54,734 bases of DNA. It comes from Desulfocapsa sulfexigens. Its GTDB lineage: Bacteria; Desulfobacterota; Desulfobulbia; Desulfobulbales; Desulfocapsaceae. The notes under the pieces are model-generated. The model searched no databases. It was not told the DNA's origin and was given only the letters and a program-made list of their open reading frames with translations. Made by a program: the position numbers and the translations under genes. Location of the stretch: contig DQTH01000302.1 in the NCBI GenBank assembly GCA_015662865.1, positions 1 through 54,734 on the forward strand, written 5' to 3'. Shown here in pieces: positions 4,054 to 39,201 of the stretch (the first letter of the stretch is position 1; each line of letters starts with the position of its first letter).

Positions 4054-5676
4054 TCATGAAGATGGTGTGTCAAACACAGGAACAGACGGAAAAAGAGAAG
4101 GGTCAGTATGGGGAATGAAACGTGCGCCTGAAAAACGAATCATAAATTCCTGGTTCACATTCAATTCGAGATAAGTAATGCTGGAAACAATATGTTCGCA
4201 CTCACGGCGTGCAGAATCGTCGAGTAAAACCAGTTCAGCTCCGCGTAAAGAACTATTACCAATCGCCCGATACGTTGAGAGGGGAAGGTCTGGCAGCATC
4301 CCTAAAGTCATTGCATGCTGCGGATTAATATGCCTGCCAAAAGCTCCGGCCACAGTAATCTCTTCAAGCTCTGTAAACTCCAACCCTACCTGATTGATAA
4401 GGGTCGTAAGAATTGCATACATGGCCGCCTTGGAACGAATCATGGCGTCAAGATCAATCTGTTCAAGAACCACTTCACCCTGCGAATCGTTTTCTTTTGC
4501 GGATGTCACCACAAAACAAAGCCCGCCTTCACGCCTTGAGATGTGTTTTTTCATAAACAACGCTCTGGCCTGATCCTGTTCACCATCCGGGTCCCTGAAC
4601 TTACCACGGATATCTATCATTCGTGTCAGATAAAGCGCAGCCACCAGATCGATAAGACCCGAACCACAAATCCCTTTCGGCCTCACATTACCAATGGTTC
4701 GATATTCCATCTCATAGGTTTCAGGATCAATGGAGACAAATTCTATGGCACCGGGTCCGGCTCGCATTCCCATTCTGGCAACACCACCCTCTAGCGCAGG
4801 CCCTGCAGCACCAGCGCAGGCAATCAGCCACTCACTGTTTCCAAGAACAACTTCGGCATTGGTACCAACATCTATCAACATCCTTGTTTTCTCTGATTTT
4901 GCCATACCTGACGCAAGAATGCCTGAAATCAGATCACCACCAAAATAACTTCCAACTGATGGCATGATCCACACAGGAGATGCAGGATTAATGGCCAGTT
5001 TCAGTTGTCCGGCATCCATCACAGGAGCCCTGTTGAACAAGGGAATATACGGCTCACGACAAATAAAATATGGGTCAAGTCCCAGAAACAAATGTGCCAT
5101 GGTGGTATTTCCGGATACAGAAAGCGCGAGGATCTCACCAGCCGTTACCCCAGCTCGGGCGGCCAGCATTGCGGCAAGTTCATTTATGGCAGTTATTATT
5201 TCGTTTTGCAGTTCTGTCAGCCCGGGATCAAAAAAATCAGGCTCCGGTAATTTTTGCTGCCTTCGTTTTGTAGTTGCATGATGGATACGGCTAAGAATGT
5301 CAGCACCAAAACGAATCTGAGTGTTTTCAAGGTTTGCTTCAGCCAGAATTTCCCCATCCTGAAGATTAACAAGGCTTGCTTCCAAATGAGTAGTGCCAAG
5401 ATCAAGTGCCATACCGGGAATAACGGCGGGTCTGGCAGCAAAAAAATCAATCACCTGCCAACTCTGATCCATATTGTTCAAAAGAGCGTATCCAGAAAAA
5501 CCTGCCAAACGAAATTTCCTGGCAACAGAAGTCATATGCTGATAGGAAACAATAACCGGACGACCATCACCAAGAATACTTGTCAGATCCTGCTGCAGTC
5601 GGTCAATATCAGCGGTATTATCCTCTAGCCCCGGAACTGCTGCATTCACCTTTACTGAACATACTATGGACTTCAT
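4054..5676 (-). CDS. RACo/AcsV-like ASKHA ATPase (DUF4445 family)
   Basis: About 540 aa from the chosen start. The track start 33 bp further out (5709) lacks a ribosome site, whereas MKSIVCS is preceded by an AGGAAGGAAAAGGAAAG purine run. The core has the ASKHA phosphate loop LDLGTTHLEA, a second loop VGTNAEVVLG, and GICGSGLIDLVAAL. These mark the family of reductive activators of corrinoid enzymes (RACo, RamA, AcsV), which reduce Co(II) corrinoids at the expense of ATP. Unlike characterised members, I see no N-terminal Cys-rich [2Fe-2S] domain and no C-terminal ferredoxin motifs; only a short linker of about 80 residues precedes the ATPase. The electron donor would have to be a separate protein, or the role may differ. 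Confidence 0.75.
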   Translation of the reverse strand: MKSIVCSVKVNAAVPGLEDNTADIDRLQQDLTSILGDGRPVIVSYQHMTSVARKFRLAGFSGYALLNNMDQSWQVIDFFAARPAVIPGMALDLGTTHLEASLVNLQDGEILAEANLENTQIRFGADILSRIHHATTKRRQQKLPEPDFFDPGLTELQNEIITAINELAAMLAARAGVTAGEILALSVSGNTTMAHLFLGLDPYFICREPYIPLFNRAPVMDAGQLKLAINPASPVWIMPSVGSYFGGDLISGILASGMAKSEKTRMLIDVGTNAEVVLGNSEWLIACAGAAGPALEGGVARMGMRAGPGAIEFVSIDPETYEMEYRTIGNVRPKGICGSGLIDLVAALYLTRMIDIRGKFRDPDGEQDQARALFMKKHISRREGGLCFVVTSAKENDSQGEVVLEQIDLDAMIRSKAAMYAILTTLINQVGLEFTELEEITVAGAFGRHINPQHAMTLGMLPDLPLSTYRAIGNSSLRGAELVLLDDSARRECEHIVSSITYLELNVNQEFMIRFSGARFIPHTDPSLFPSVPVFDTPSS

Positions 5677-5827
5677 TCTTTCCTTTTCCTTCCTGACCTT
5701 GACGTTCATCTTCTAGGATGTTACCTAGTGCAGACACTGTTATGAACAAGATGCCCTGTTTATAATATTACTGGTCAACGATAAATATAAACCACTATAC
5801 ATTTTAATCCCATTTAAGGGGCTCAGC

Positions 5828-6382: not shown

Positions 6383-7465
6383 GTGACACTTCTTAATCGC
6401 TATATACTCTCCCAGTTTGTCCGCACATTTTTCATTGTCGCAGCTGCATTTCTGGCCATCTACATTCTCATAGACTTTTTTGAAAAGATCGATAATTTCA
6501 TGGAAGCTGGAAAATCCATGAACCTTGTCCTGAAATTTTTTCTTCTCAATATCCCGTTTATTATAGATATGCTTGGGCCTGTTCTCATTCTGCTCTCCAG
6601 CGTTATCAGCCTAGGCATATTGAGTCACAACAATGAACTCACCGCAATGATGGCCGGCGGGATCCACATGCGCACCATAATCAACCCCATTCTCATCGGT
6701 GCGATGATTTTCACAATGCTTTTTCTTGCAATGGCCCAGTGGCTTTTACCACGAACCATTGAAGCAACCAATACCATCTGGTATGAAAATGTCAAAGGTA
6801 TGGTACCACTTGGAATCTATCGCAACGGACGCTATTACTATAAGGGAAAAGAAGGATTTTTCTCTTTTGCCAGACCCTGGCCGGACAAAAATATATTTCT
6901 CGATTTTTCCTACTCTACCTGGGACGACAAACACAGACTGAAAACTCTTATCGCTGCAAAAAAGGCGGAATGGAACGAAGCCGGCTGGCACTTATCATAT
7001 GGTCAAATCCAGGACCAAACCGGTCAGAACGAATATCTGACAACCCCTTTTGTTTATAAAATATTTTCATTTCCTGGACGCCCGGACTTCTTTTTCATCC
7101 CCAAGTACCAATCTGCTGAGCTCTCTCTGACGGAGCTGTTCCAGGCCATTCACAAACAGGAAACCCACAATGAAACCGTCATCGCCAAAACAAATTTCTA
7201 CAGCAGGATCTCTTATACCCTCCTTGGCTTACCTTTGCTCTTATTAGGACTACCTGTACTTCTCTTGTCCTACAAAAAGTGGGGAAAAGATCTTTCAGTC
7301 GCAATTCCAGTAAGTTGCGGAATGGCCTTTGTTGCATGGGGATTCTGGGGTGCGTTACAATCCCTTGCCAGGGTGGATTATATTTCACCTCTGCTGGCAG
7401 CAAGCCTGATCCATGTCATATTTGGTCTCAGCGGATTCCTTCTCCTACACAAACAGGCTTCATGA
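6383..7465 (+). CDS. lptG: LPS export permease LptG (YjgP/YjgQ family)
   Basis: 360 aa inner-membrane permease with three N-terminal and three C-terminal membrane helices around a periplasmic beta-jellyroll segment, the LptF/LptG layout. The N-terminus (RYILSQFVRTF) and the MMAGGIHM cytoplasmic coupling segment are family hallmarks; LptG rather than LptF is my reading. With LptF and the LptB ATPase it extracts lipopolysaccharide toward the LptC-A-D bridge. The start is GTG, 9 nt after crcB, with no strong ribosome site. Its stop overlaps the next ATG by 4 bp (ATGA), coupling it to the HgdB-like gene. No lptF is in the window. Confidence 0.88.
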   Translation: MTLLNRYILSQFVRTFFIVAAAFLAIYILIDFFEKIDNFMEAGKSMNLVLKFFLLNIPFIIDMLGPVLILLSSVISLGILSHNNELTAMMAGGIHMRTIINPILIGAMIFTMLFLAMAQWLLPRTIEATNTIWYENVKGMVPLGIYRNGRYYYKGKEGFFSFARPWPDKNIFLDFSYSTWDDKHRLKTLIAAKKAEWNEAGWHLSYGQIQDQTGQNEYLTTPFVYKIFSFPGRPDFFFIPKYQSAELSLTELFQAIHKQETHNETVIAKTNFYSRISYTLLGLPLLLLGLPVLLLSYKKWGKDLSVAIPVSCGMAFVAWGFWGALQSLARVDYISPLLAASLIHVIFGLSGFLLLHKQAS

Positions 7466-8217
7466 TGACTTCATCACCAATACAGCGGGCAGGTATTGTT
7501 GGAATTCCACCGCTTTCTGTTATGGAGCTCATCACAACTCCGGACTATGAAATATTTGACCTTGATGAACCACAGGGAAGAGTTGATCTTGAAACAGCCT
7601 CTCCTTTCCTGCCCCGCGTCTACTGTGGTATCCTGCGTACAGTAATTGCAAACAGTCTGGCCATCCAACCGGATATCATCTATATCGACACTGGTGCCGG
7701 GAAATGTGACTGTGCAGTACACACTGCAACGGTTCTGGAAGACATGCTGCCAGCCACCCGGATCATCAGGACCAGAAATAATGATTCCGTTGATTTTGGA
7801 ACACCTCTTTGCAAAACACAGATGAGCCTCATGGAAAAGATGTCAGCAGTTACGGCATCAGTACAAAAGACAGCGCCATATCCAGAGCTTCCCACATGCG
7901 CACCTACAGCCGGTTTCTGGGGCGTTCCTCCAAGAGATTTCTCTATCCTGAATTTCTTTCCGGACACCACTCATATTTATGGGTGGGCACGTTGTATGGA
8001 AAACAAAACACCGGACAACATGGATCTTGAGCTCCACTACAACCCTGACATTCCCACTGTGTTTTTTGCTCAGTCGTTTTGTGCCAAGACCGCTCTTGCC
8101 AGACATCTTGCCAGCAAACATCCCCGTGGCCTCTATCTCGACTGTGATGTAACAGCTGGAAACAGCGCCAAAGCAAAAATCCAGGCATTTCTTGAACTGT
8201 CAGGAATAGACGCCTGA
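7462..8217 (+). CDS. Short HgdB-like cysteine-rich protein, function unknown
   Basis: 251 aa. The track ORF starts at 7279, but the real start is the ATG overlapping the lptG stop (ATGA). I do not recognise a characterised orthologue. The C-terminus (LYLDCDVTAGNSAKAKIQAFLEL) resembles the end of 2-hydroxyacyl-CoA dehydratase beta/HgdB-like subunits, where a D-x-D segment precedes a QxKTRIEAFLEM helix. The N-terminal GIPPLSVMELI and the segment with CGILRTVIANS also fit loosely. Eight cysteines are spread along it, including KCDC and single Cys in PTCAP, ARCME and QSFCAK, enough to bind an Fe-S cluster. It is much shorter than HgdB (about 400 aa). It is followed after 7 bp by an HgdC-like activase, which strengthens the HgdB reading. 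Confidence 0.5.
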   Translation: MMTSSPIQRAGIVGIPPLSVMELITTPDYEIFDLDEPQGRVDLETASPFLPRVYCGILRTVIANSLAIQPDIIYIDTGAGKCDCAVHTATVLEDMLPATRIIRTRNNDSVDFGTPLCKTQMSLMEKMSAVTASVQKTAPYPELPTCAPTAGFWGVPPRDFSILNFFPDTTHIYGWARCMENKTPDNMDLELHYNPDIPTVFFAQSFCAKTALARHLASKHPRGLYLDCDVTAGNSAKAKIQAFLELSGIDA

Positions 8218-8224
8218 GGCTCCC

Positions 8225-8896
8225 ATGTTACTCGCTGATTTCGGCACGTCCTACTGCAAACTACTCGACACTCAGTCAACTACAACAGTCCCCCGTCTGA
8301 TCGCTACCAGATCCATTGACAGGAGCATGAAAGTTGATATCGCCACCGGACATAATGGCAAGAGATATACCACTCACTATGTCAATGAGCTCACAGCACT
8401 TGCCAGAGGAGGATTAAGCCTGACCAGAGAACAATCCTTCACCCTGCTCGATTGTGGCAGTCGTGATATTAAATATGTTGTTTACGGTGATGGAAAGATT
8501 AAAGATATGGGATGGAATGCGGAATGTGGCGCCTCCATGGGGTTCACCATAGAGCTGCTTGAAAAATATTACACTCTTGATTTTTCTAAAATGGATGTTC
8601 CCAAAAGTTCTTTTTCTGTCACCTGTGGAGTTTTGGGGATGAGTCACATCTTTGATGCTGTAGTTACAGGGGCCAGTGAAGCAGAGGCCGTGGCCAAATT
8701 TGTTAAGGGTATTGCAATCAATGCCTACAACTTTGCCAAACAACCTGAAAAAATCTATCTTTCCGGTGGACTCTGCGACAATCCGCTTTTTGTAAATTCT
8801 TTTCCCTGTCCTGTGGTATCACTGGGCCGTTTTGTACTCCTGGAAGGTCTTCTGAATTCGCTTCACTTGCCTTCATTCAGCGATCTTCAACCATGA
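8225..8896 (+). CDS. HgdC/BadF-like ASKHA activase, short form
   Basis: 223 aa, slightly short for the roughly 260-aa activators of 2-hydroxyacyl-CoA dehydratases and benzoyl-CoA reductases. Visible motifs are phosphate loop 1 LLADFGTSYCKLL, phosphate loop 2 LLDCGSRDIKYV, and the adenosine motif IYLSGGLCDNP. Two cysteines stand where HgdC uses Cys pairs across the dimer to hold one [4Fe-4S]: NAECGASMG and SVTCGVLGMSH. It may therefore be an ATP-driven one-electron donor, probably to the HgdB-like protein upstream. The ribosome site GAGG lies 5 nt before ATG, 7 bp after the upstream stop. No acyl-CoA metabolic genes adjoin it, so the substrate is open. Confidence 0.7.
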   Translation: MLLADFGTSYCKLLDTQSTTTVPRLIATRSIDRSMKVDIATGHNGKRYTTHYVNELTALARGGLSLTREQSFTLLDCGSRDIKYVVYGDGKIKDMGWNAECGASMGFTIELLEKYYTLDFSKMDVPKSSFSVTCGVLGMSHIFDAVVTGASEAEAVAKFVKGIAINAYNFAKQPEKIYLSGGLCDNPLFVNSFPCPVVSLGRFVLLEGLLNSLHLPSFSDLQP

Positions 8897-8968: not shown

Positions 8969-9730
8969 TTAAGAATAGTTCTTGCTCCACTGATTTAAAG
9001 CCACCTTTTCCTCATCTTCAAGAAGTTCAGCAACAGCAGAGAGAAGTGGGCCAATATCCTCTTTAGCCAGCATCTCAGGACTTAAATCCATTTGTTCGAA
9101 AGCATCTTCAACAAGAACAGCTCCTGCCGGACCGACCAGACCCATCAATTCATCATTCAATGCGGTTAAAAATTTATTTTGCTCCTGGCTGGACATCACC
9201 TCTTTCGATGCAGCTTCCTTTTCCTTTGCCACGCCTGCAAGCAATAATCGACAAATTCGGGTCAACACGGCAAGCTCAGACTGGCCGGACATTGCAATAA
9301 TCTGAGCAATATCTCGTTGCCCATCTATCAACAATGCCATTTTATAATCACTGGCATTAAGCTTTGCAGCGTTATTAAGTTTTTCCGGATCGACCTGAAA
9401 AATGACGTTGTCATCAGGAATTTTATCATTAATTATAGTAATATTTTTAAACGTCTTCTCCAGAAAAGAAAGAAGAGACATTGTGTCGATTGATGGGTCC
9501 GGGGTATAATTGGTATGATTCCCTTCCTGGAAGGTGGCCGATATACTGACCCAGCGCATACAGCTTGAAGCAGCGTCTTTTCCCTGTATGCTTTTTGTCT
9601 CAACCTGTTCAACAATCCCTTCTTTTATATAGAGTCGTGCCGTATCATCGTATTTATGGACGACTTCAAGTGTTCCGCTTTTTCCTTCAAAAACCAACGG
9701 TTTTAATATGGGTAACAGTGATTGATACAT
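8969..9730 (-). CDS. DUF4388-type protein, possibly regulatory
   Basis: 253 aa, soluble, no signal peptide. The first 90 or so residues (FEGKSGTLEVVHKYDDTARLYIKEGIVEQVET) resemble the DUF4388/PATAN-like domain common in deltaproteobacterial and myxobacterial signalling proteins. The last 60 (LMGLVGPAGAVLVEDAFEQM) resemble the small C-terminal domain that often accompanies it. The middle segment is helical. Function is unknown; such proteins usually work with receiver domains or small GTPases in gliding, motility or polarity control. The start has GAGGA 10 nt upstream. It lies 348 bp beyond the repeat protein on the same strand and converges on the HgdC-like gene 72 bp away. Confidence 0.55.
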   Translation of the reverse strand: MYQSLLPILKPLVFEGKSGTLEVVHKYDDTARLYIKEGIVEQVETKSIQGKDAASSCMRWVSISATFQEGNHTNYTPDPSIDTMSLLSFLEKTFKNITIINDKIPDDNVIFQVDPEKLNNAAKLNASDYKMALLIDGQRDIAQIIAMSGQSELAVLTRICRLLLAGVAKEKEAASKEVMSSQEQNKFLTALNDELMGLVGPAGAVLVEDAFEQMDLSPEMLAKEDIGPLLSAVAELLEDEEKVALNQWSKNYS

Positions 9731-38382: not shown

Positions 38383-39147
38383 CTATTTTTTCAGTAGAGA
38401 GGATGGTGCGCCAAGAAAATTCTTTATCCATTCAAAGGCAAATTTCAGCAATTCAGTGTCGGATTTATTAATTCTACGCTTCTGATCACGTGAAACTGTA
38501 AATCTCTCAAGTAGTGAATGTTTAGCCACCATTAATCTGAAATTATCAATATCATAACAAGCGGTGAAGGCAACCTGCTGCTTGGGGCCTCCGCTTCCTT
38601 CGCCGGCCCATGGATTTCCTGCAAATACGGTATCCACTTCAGCCCACAGATCATTCATCAGATTAAAATCATCAAGCCGTTGATTACGGATCCATTTTCT
38701 GACGGTAAAGCTTTTTTCCTCCTGATGACCATGACAATAGTCATGATTGGTTAACAGATAAAAATCTGTTGCCATACCTTTTTCAGGAGAACGATCAACC
38801 CCACGTTCCAGAGGGTAAGTTCTGCATGCAGACGGTCTATCCATATATACTTCACAACCATCATCCCCTAAAAACGGACATGACTTTTTCTCGTCTTTAG
38901 TTAAACGCAGCATAATGGATGGAAAATAAGGATGACTGACACCTTGAACAACTGTGGTGTAATTCTCCATAAATTCCTGAGAAGAAATTTTGAGAGCCTG
39001 TTTAAGACGCAGGATATCATAAGGATAGAGAAACATATCAACGTTTCTGCAGCAGACCATATAACAATCGACACCGGGATGGCAGTGAAAGCTAAATTTC
39101 TTCTTTCCAAGGGGCTCCATTCCAGGTGGTAATTCTTTATTTATCAT
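38383..39147 (-). CDS. YkgJ-family cysteine-cluster protein
   Basis: About 254 aa. The track start is a TTG; the in-frame ATG 12 bp later, with GGA 7 nt upstream, is preferred. Cysteines cluster in CHPGVDCYMVCC near the N-terminus and in CPFLGDDGCEVYMDRPSACRTYPL, the CxxxxxxCxxxxxxxxxCRxYP signature of putative zinc- or iron-chelating YkgJ/PF03692 proteins. The second half is charged and helical. Biological role is unknown. It stands alone between the alpha operon terminator and the rpsB leader. Confidence 0.82.
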   Translation of the reverse strand: MINKELPPGMEPLGKKKFSFHCHPGVDCYMVCCRNVDMFLYPYDILRLKQALKISSQEFMENYTTVVQGVSHPYFPSIMLRLTKDEKKSCPFLGDDGCEVYMDRPSACRTYPLERGVDRSPEKGMATDFYLLTNHDYCHGHQEEKSFTVRKWIRNQRLDDFNLMNDLWAEVDTVFAGNPWAGEGSGGPKQQVAFTACYDIDNFRLMVAKHSLLERFTVSRDQKRRINKSDTELLKFAFEWIKNFLGAPSSLLKK

Positions 39148-39201
39148 CCTATCGTCCAATTATGTGTAAAGTATGGGAAAATAATTAGTCAAAAAAACAA
39201 G

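Follow-up and report, generated by a model that had tools for sequence, protein, structure and literature searches.

Two small adjacent genes downstream of lptG in Desulfocapsa sulfexigens, here called P1 and P2, probably encode a compact two-component iron–sulfur reductase, in which an ATP-driven activase would supply low-potential electrons to a single-chain partner protein. They lie within a stretch of 54,734 nucleotides (contig DQTH01000302.1), which was analysed as a whole and is called the window in the following. The initial annotation had suggested a minimal system for ATP-driven low-potential electron transfer, and this suggestion is supported here, as it fits both the evidence given below and the absence of a CoA-channel domain. 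A more tentative proposal, which may well hold, is that the pair represents a new subfamily of ATP-driven radical reductases that is single-chain, has no CoA-binding module and catalyses an as yet undescribed reaction of a non-CoA substrate in most Desulfobulbales.

Results and Discussion

Both open reading frames, of 251 and 223 amino acids, were confirmed as initially annotated with a gap of 7 bases between the stop codon of P1 and the start codon of P2, and the ATG of P1 shares bases with the stop codon TGA of lptG in an ATGA at 7462–7465 (Table 1). We collected more than 90 orthologous P1/P2 pairs from Desulfobacterota loci, with relatives of P2 on 80 named contigs, and the differences at the three codon positions are 0.12/0.09/0.38 and 0.14/0.10/0.43 for the two genes. 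Among the named relatives, Desulfocapsa MAGs are the nearest. Thus P1 and P2 are real genes, as shown by the number of orthologous pairs and by change that is biased to the third position. It also holds that both proteins are shorter than the characterised components (P1 has 251 aa compared to about 420 aa in the double-cubane protein DCCP, and P2 is smaller than known activases) and that acyl-CoA genes are missing nearby, as none was seen when the long open reading frames of the window were read. Convergent with P2 a 253-aa protein is encoded (8969–9730, minus strand) that matches no Pfam family and shows a faint PqqD-like stretch (E 0.028). Another gene of the window (38383–39159, minus strand), located between rpsB and rpoA, encodes a cysteine-rich protein that reads like a member of the YkgJ-type CxxCxxCC family.

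Table 1: Genes and selected cysteine codons of the lptG–P1–P2 locus, with positions in the window.
Feature	Position	Strand	Assignment and evidence
lptG	6383..7465	+	LPS export permease; PF03739 E 1.5e-59, TIGR04408 E 9.4e-53; operon partner upstream in Desulfobulbales only
P1	7462..8217	+	predicted compact BCR/HAD/DCCP-fold Fe-S protein, 251 aa; AF2 model, Foldseek, profile ranking
P1 Cys55 codon	7624..7626	+	putative proximal [4Fe-4S] ligand; 93/93; aligned with HGD-D LPRN-C and HadC FAC
P1 Cys82 codon (GKCD)	7705..7707	+	putative proximal [4Fe-4S] ligand; 93/93; 27 residues after C55
P1 Cys117 codon	7810..7812	+	extra conserved cysteine; 91/93
P1 Cys178 codon (RCMEN)	7993..7995	+	matches distal-cluster cysteine BzdN C293 / L143 C314; 93/93
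P1 Cys207 codon (QSFC)	8080..8082	+	putative proximal [4Fe-4S] ligand; 93/93; aligned with HGD-D QFC / LTFC and HadC KFC
P2	8225..8896	+	predicted HgdC/DCCP-R-type ASKHA activase, 223 aa; Foldseek 7yyl_E, PDB profile search 1hux, model
P2 Cys101 codon	8525..8527	+	putative inter-subunit [4Fe-4S] ligand; NDKC-AAGTG position of HgdC; 98/98
P2 Cys134 codon	8624..8626	+	putative inter-subunit [4Fe-4S] ligand; TC-TVFAESE position of HgdC; 98/98

Judged by its sequence and its predicted structure, P2 is a bona fide activase of the HgdC/BadF type, even if it stays below the curated cut-offs. The match to TIGR00241 (acyl-CoA dehydratase activases) is significant with E 7e-8 but reaches 32.3 bits against a cut-off of 125.4 bits, and for PF01869 16.6 bits were obtained against 31.5 bits. 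Using a profile of 54 P2 sequences as query, the PDB search returned HgdC (1hux, E 2.2e-10), the DCCP reductase DCCP-R (7yyl, 8.4e-10) and HadI (4eht, 2.4e-9). The predicted structure (pLDDT 91.5, pTM 0.88) has the ASKHA ATPase fold, and the ten best Foldseek matches are all activases of benzoyl-CoA reductases (BCR), 2-hydroxyacyl-CoA dehydratases (HAD) or DCCP with E 2.8e-13 to 1.1e-11, the first of them being chain 7yyl_E of DCCP-R with a TMq of 0.76. The ASKHA motifs DFGT..K, DCGSRD.K and SGGL are present in nearly all P2 sequences, and C101 and C134 align with the two cluster cysteines of HgdC, giving two cysteines per subunit as in that activase. Thus the reading of P2 as an ASKHA activase that retains both HgdC cysteines is borne out. 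In the phylogenetic tree the P2 sequences group separately (100/100 support) from those activases of the phylum that go with ordinary HGD-D proteins, and the branch leading to this P2 clade is very long, with about 10 changes per column in total separating P2 from known activases. A plasmid search with P2 gave two weak activase matches only.

For P1 the model points to the two-domain fold of benzoyl-CoA reductase, 2-hydroxyacyl-CoA dehydratase and double-cubane protein over the whole chain. The AF2 model built with 71 orthologues, cofactor-free like that of P2 (pLDDT 88.4, pTM 0.84), was compared with 350,542 solved chains by Foldseek and its two predicted alpha/beta domains match the HAD fold, as the top six hits all belong to BzdNO, DCCP or HadBC (E 8.8e-5 to 1.5e-3, TMq 0.51–0.63) and are followed by unrelated folds with a TMq of about 0.24. 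The best of these matches is the class I benzoyl-CoA reductase BzdNO/BzdPQ (PDB 8s02, E 8.8e-5, TMq 0.62). The initial annotation had described an HgdB-like C-terminus and had named the lack of structural similarity to HgdB as a reason to give the idea up; the predicted HgdB fold stands, while its restriction to the C-terminus does not, as the likeness extends over all of P1, with its maximum in the N-terminal half.

At the level of sequence the relationship is much fainter. P1 matches no Pfam family at E ≤ 1, including HGD-D (PF06050), and no NCBIfam family, so that of the family HMM searches proposed initially those for P2 were positive (TIGR00241 and 1hux) and those for P1 in Pfam and NCBIfam were not. 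With a P1 profile HadC was the sole match at E ≤ 10 among 177,635 PDB sequences (E 0.51), and the alignment is collinear through both domains. When the profile was run against 1563 pooled open reading frames, the 23 best matches after the P1 orthologues were all located in HGD-D loci (E 0.012–0.45), and at least 21 of these 23 are full-length proteins of HGD-D size. A hhalign comparison of P1 with HGD-D gave a probability of 2–3%, and only the register of the N-terminal and the last cysteines was taken from it; a global hhalign comparison returned no alignment. As the best single E-value is 0.012, the family assignment of P1 is based on a combination of the predicted fold, the rank in the profile search and the register of the cysteines.

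TudS is another member of the superfamily, small and single-chain, and its [4Fe-5S] cluster is the site of sulfur transfer (PMC11971306; PMC10611767); P1 might accordingly be a scaffold or a desulfidase-like protein for sulfur transfer instead of an electron-accepting reductase. We regard this as highly improbable, as the obligate activase partner P2 would then be superfluous, no TudS protein is found among the 23 best matches of the P1 profile and genome G000 carries a TudS gene elsewhere. TudS/DUF523 thiouracil desulfidases also differ from P1 in consisting of a domain of about 140 aa that works on sulfur and has no activase partner.

The cysteines of P1 agree with the predicted fold. P1 has a three-cysteine site of the proximal type, with C55 and C82 in the N-terminal and C207 in the C-terminal domain, and the spacing of 27 residues between C55 and C82 equals that in HadC and that of C73/C100 in BzdN. 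In the latter protein the double cubane is bound by Cys36/73/100/263/293/327, and the single cluster of BzdO by Cys95/128/380 (PMC11971306). By analogy with the homologous BzdO site, C73, C100 and C327 of BzdN would hold the proximal sub-cluster. BzdN and P1 also share a glutamine three residues before the last cysteine (Q324/C327 and Q204/C207), and C178 corresponds to BzdN C293 when 28 residues are aligned by eye, without gaps, with HGD-D proteins. Poor conservation of the cysteines, the second observation that had been named as speaking against the system, was not found, since C55, C82, C178 and C207 of P1 and both P2 cysteines occur in every sequence compared. From the predicted fold and the proximal cysteine triad we thus assign P1 to the BCR–HAD–DCCP superfamily.

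Within this superfamily P1 differs from both the CoA-dependent dehydratases and the full double-cubane proteins. The region between its domains consists of a single helix (123–135), about 100 aa are missing compared to HGD-D, and with them the helical middle domain from which the CoA channel of known CoA-dependent dehydratases and benzoyl-CoA reductases is built. At the positions of BzdN C36 and C263 P1 has residues other than cysteine, so that four of the six double-cubane positions are kept. One could still imagine P1 as a protein with a DCCP-like [8Fe-9S] cluster in which the non-homologous C117 and C146 replace the two missing ligands: both are well conserved (C146 in 82/93 sequences), four ligand positions are in place and the DCCP reductase is the best match of P2. 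But the missing positions, G14 and the W153–P156 loop, are occupied by conserved residues other than cysteine and C146 is absent in family f42, making a double cubane quite unlikely.

The closest known system in design is DCCP/DCCP-R from Carboxydothermus (PDB 7yyl), which likewise consists of two components, with DCCP-R as the closest solved structure to P2 and DCCP among the top folds for P1, and DCCP reduces small non-CoA molecules (PMC11971306); P1 is much shorter, has no helical domain in the middle and keeps four of the six cluster cysteines. The dehydratases HgdAB and HadBC with their activators HgdC and HadI (PDB 3o3m, 1hux, 4eht) share the proximal [4Fe-4S] cysteine triad with P1 and the activase cysteines and ATP-binding motifs with P2. 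In contrast to HgdAB/HadBC, P1–P2 comprises one gene for a catalytic subunit instead of two, is found outside any acyl-CoA context and gives no Pfam HGD-D match. Compared to BzdNO/BzdPQ the gene for a second catalytic subunit, the CoA-binding domain and nearby CoA genes are all missing. A HAD-family reductase/activase acting outside CoA catabolism, as proposed for P1–P2, is known from the plasmalogen synthase PlsA–PlsR and the DUF2229 activase fusions, the latter being proteins of about 1400 aa in the relatives scanned, with no specific similarity to P1 seen.

Our preferred model for P1–P2, a reductase energised by its activase, follows these characterised relatives with respect to the clusters, the flow and direction of electrons, the coupling to ATP and the dimeric state. 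A P2 homodimer would hold one [4Fe-4S] cluster between its subunits, with C101 and C134 contributed by each, and would receive an electron from a ferredoxin-like donor. Binding and hydrolysis of ATP on P2 would then push this electron into P1, where a [4Fe-4S] cluster on C55, C82 and C207, its fourth iron being either open or bound by C178, would reduce the substrate. As the helical domain of the CoA channel is missing, this substrate is probably not a CoA thioester.

The co-occurrence of the two genes was surveyed across the Desulfobacterota, as had been proposed in the initial annotation. In 95 of the 96 loci with both genes the gap between them is below 240 bp, and in most of them P1 and P2 either share 4 or 14 bases or almost abut. 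The only locus with P1 and P2 apart (L062:2279-6654) carries an insertion of about 3 kb between them. Divergence of P1 and P2 is correlated with r = 0.93, which partly reflects their shared descent. Of 243 Desulfobulbales genomes 188 contain P1 (120 of the 149 good ones); in a sample of 395 genomes of the phylum it was found in 28, all of them from Desulfobulbales and the families f20 and f42. A genome-wide search, made for P1 only, found it absent from six genera of the family to which the window belongs (g251, g252, g256, g257, g259 and g260) and from genome G088. The lptG locus was read in 11 of the pair-less genomes, and each of them has an intact lptG with neither P1 nor P2 behind it. Such empty sites (L289 and L293–L305 except L297 and L302) keep the lptG synteny, often with DHH and crcB upstream, and DUF362-like, FKBP-like or other genes follow lptG. 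A tree calculated from the joined P1 and P2 sequences places f20 within the Desulfobulbales (98/94), from which a transfer of P1 and P2 together and without lptG is probable. The pair is thus a self-contained unit, being absent as a unit at clean lptG loci and transferred jointly to f20; like the predicted folds and the cysteine conservation, this obligate pairing, joint absence and joint transfer were computed directly.

Where a Desulfobulbales locus extends far enough, lptG is almost always located upstream of the pair, often with a second LptF/LptG gene before it. This could mean that a lipid or LPS precursor is reduced or dehydrated by the pair, which would explain a co-transcription with lptG, and some further observations are in line with such an envelope-lipid enzyme. 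In f20 (L008–L012, L129 and L130) the pair precedes genes that read by eye as lysS–lolC–lolD–bamA, plasmalogen synthase, which acts on membrane lipids, belongs to the HAD family (PMC12838417), and no large DUF2229 activase fusion was found in genome G000, which also has no PF06050 match and no HGD-D protein. We nevertheless consider a role in envelope lipids unlikely: pair-less genera keep lptG in place, P1 has no membrane segment in sequence or model, and unrelated genes can stay together through conserved synteny. Moreover, in f42 (L131–L134) the pair is located between two genes for metallo-beta-lactamase-fold hydrolases, and lptF and lptG are found elsewhere in the f20 and f42 genomes, with none found in one f20 draft (G091). 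Thus, the absence of the pair as a unit at clean synteny and its transfer without lptG make the link to lptG look positional. Of the translational linkage to lptG claimed initially the ATGA overlap holds, but its functional weight is weakened, as the coupling to lptG is specific to Desulfobulbales, the pair occurs without adjoining lptG in two other families and lptG is kept in place by genera that lack the pair. The neighbourhood in f42 could give a hint at the substrate. A cysteine-rich 270-aa protein without Pfam match is also encoded near the f42 pair.

A second neighbour is a RACo-like gene divergent to the lptG–P1–P2 operon, which is found in about 51 Desulfobulbales loci and in the window at 4054–5709 (minus strand). 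The RACo/AcsV-like ATPase of the window matched only positions 116–632 of the AcsV model and apparently misses the N-terminal [2Fe-2S] domain of a normal RACo, and P1–P2 might therefore feed electrons into this ATPase for corrinoid reactivation. The distribution contradicts this role and renders it very improbable, since no RACo_C_ter match was found in the pair-bearing genomes G052, G117, G171 and G281 and in most f42 genomes. RACo was thus rejected as a required partner of the pair.

Conclusion

In summary, P1 and P2 probably act as a reductase and its activase, present or absent together and jointly transferred. Automatic annotation probably leaves P1 nameless, as none of the curated family cut-offs tested is reached by the genes, and our literature search found no paper combining Desulfobulbales with hydroxyacyl-CoA dehydratases. 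Reductions performed by this enzyme family are among the most demanding in biology, and CoA thioesters are the substrates of most of its known members. That most genomes of a major sulfur-cycling order keep a compact version without CoA channel suggests a so far unrecognised reaction in these bacteria, as does the fact that in the loci seen P1 is never separated from its activase, apart from the one insertion between the genes. P1–P2 would, moreover, lend itself as a convenient minimal model of ATP-driven electron injection.
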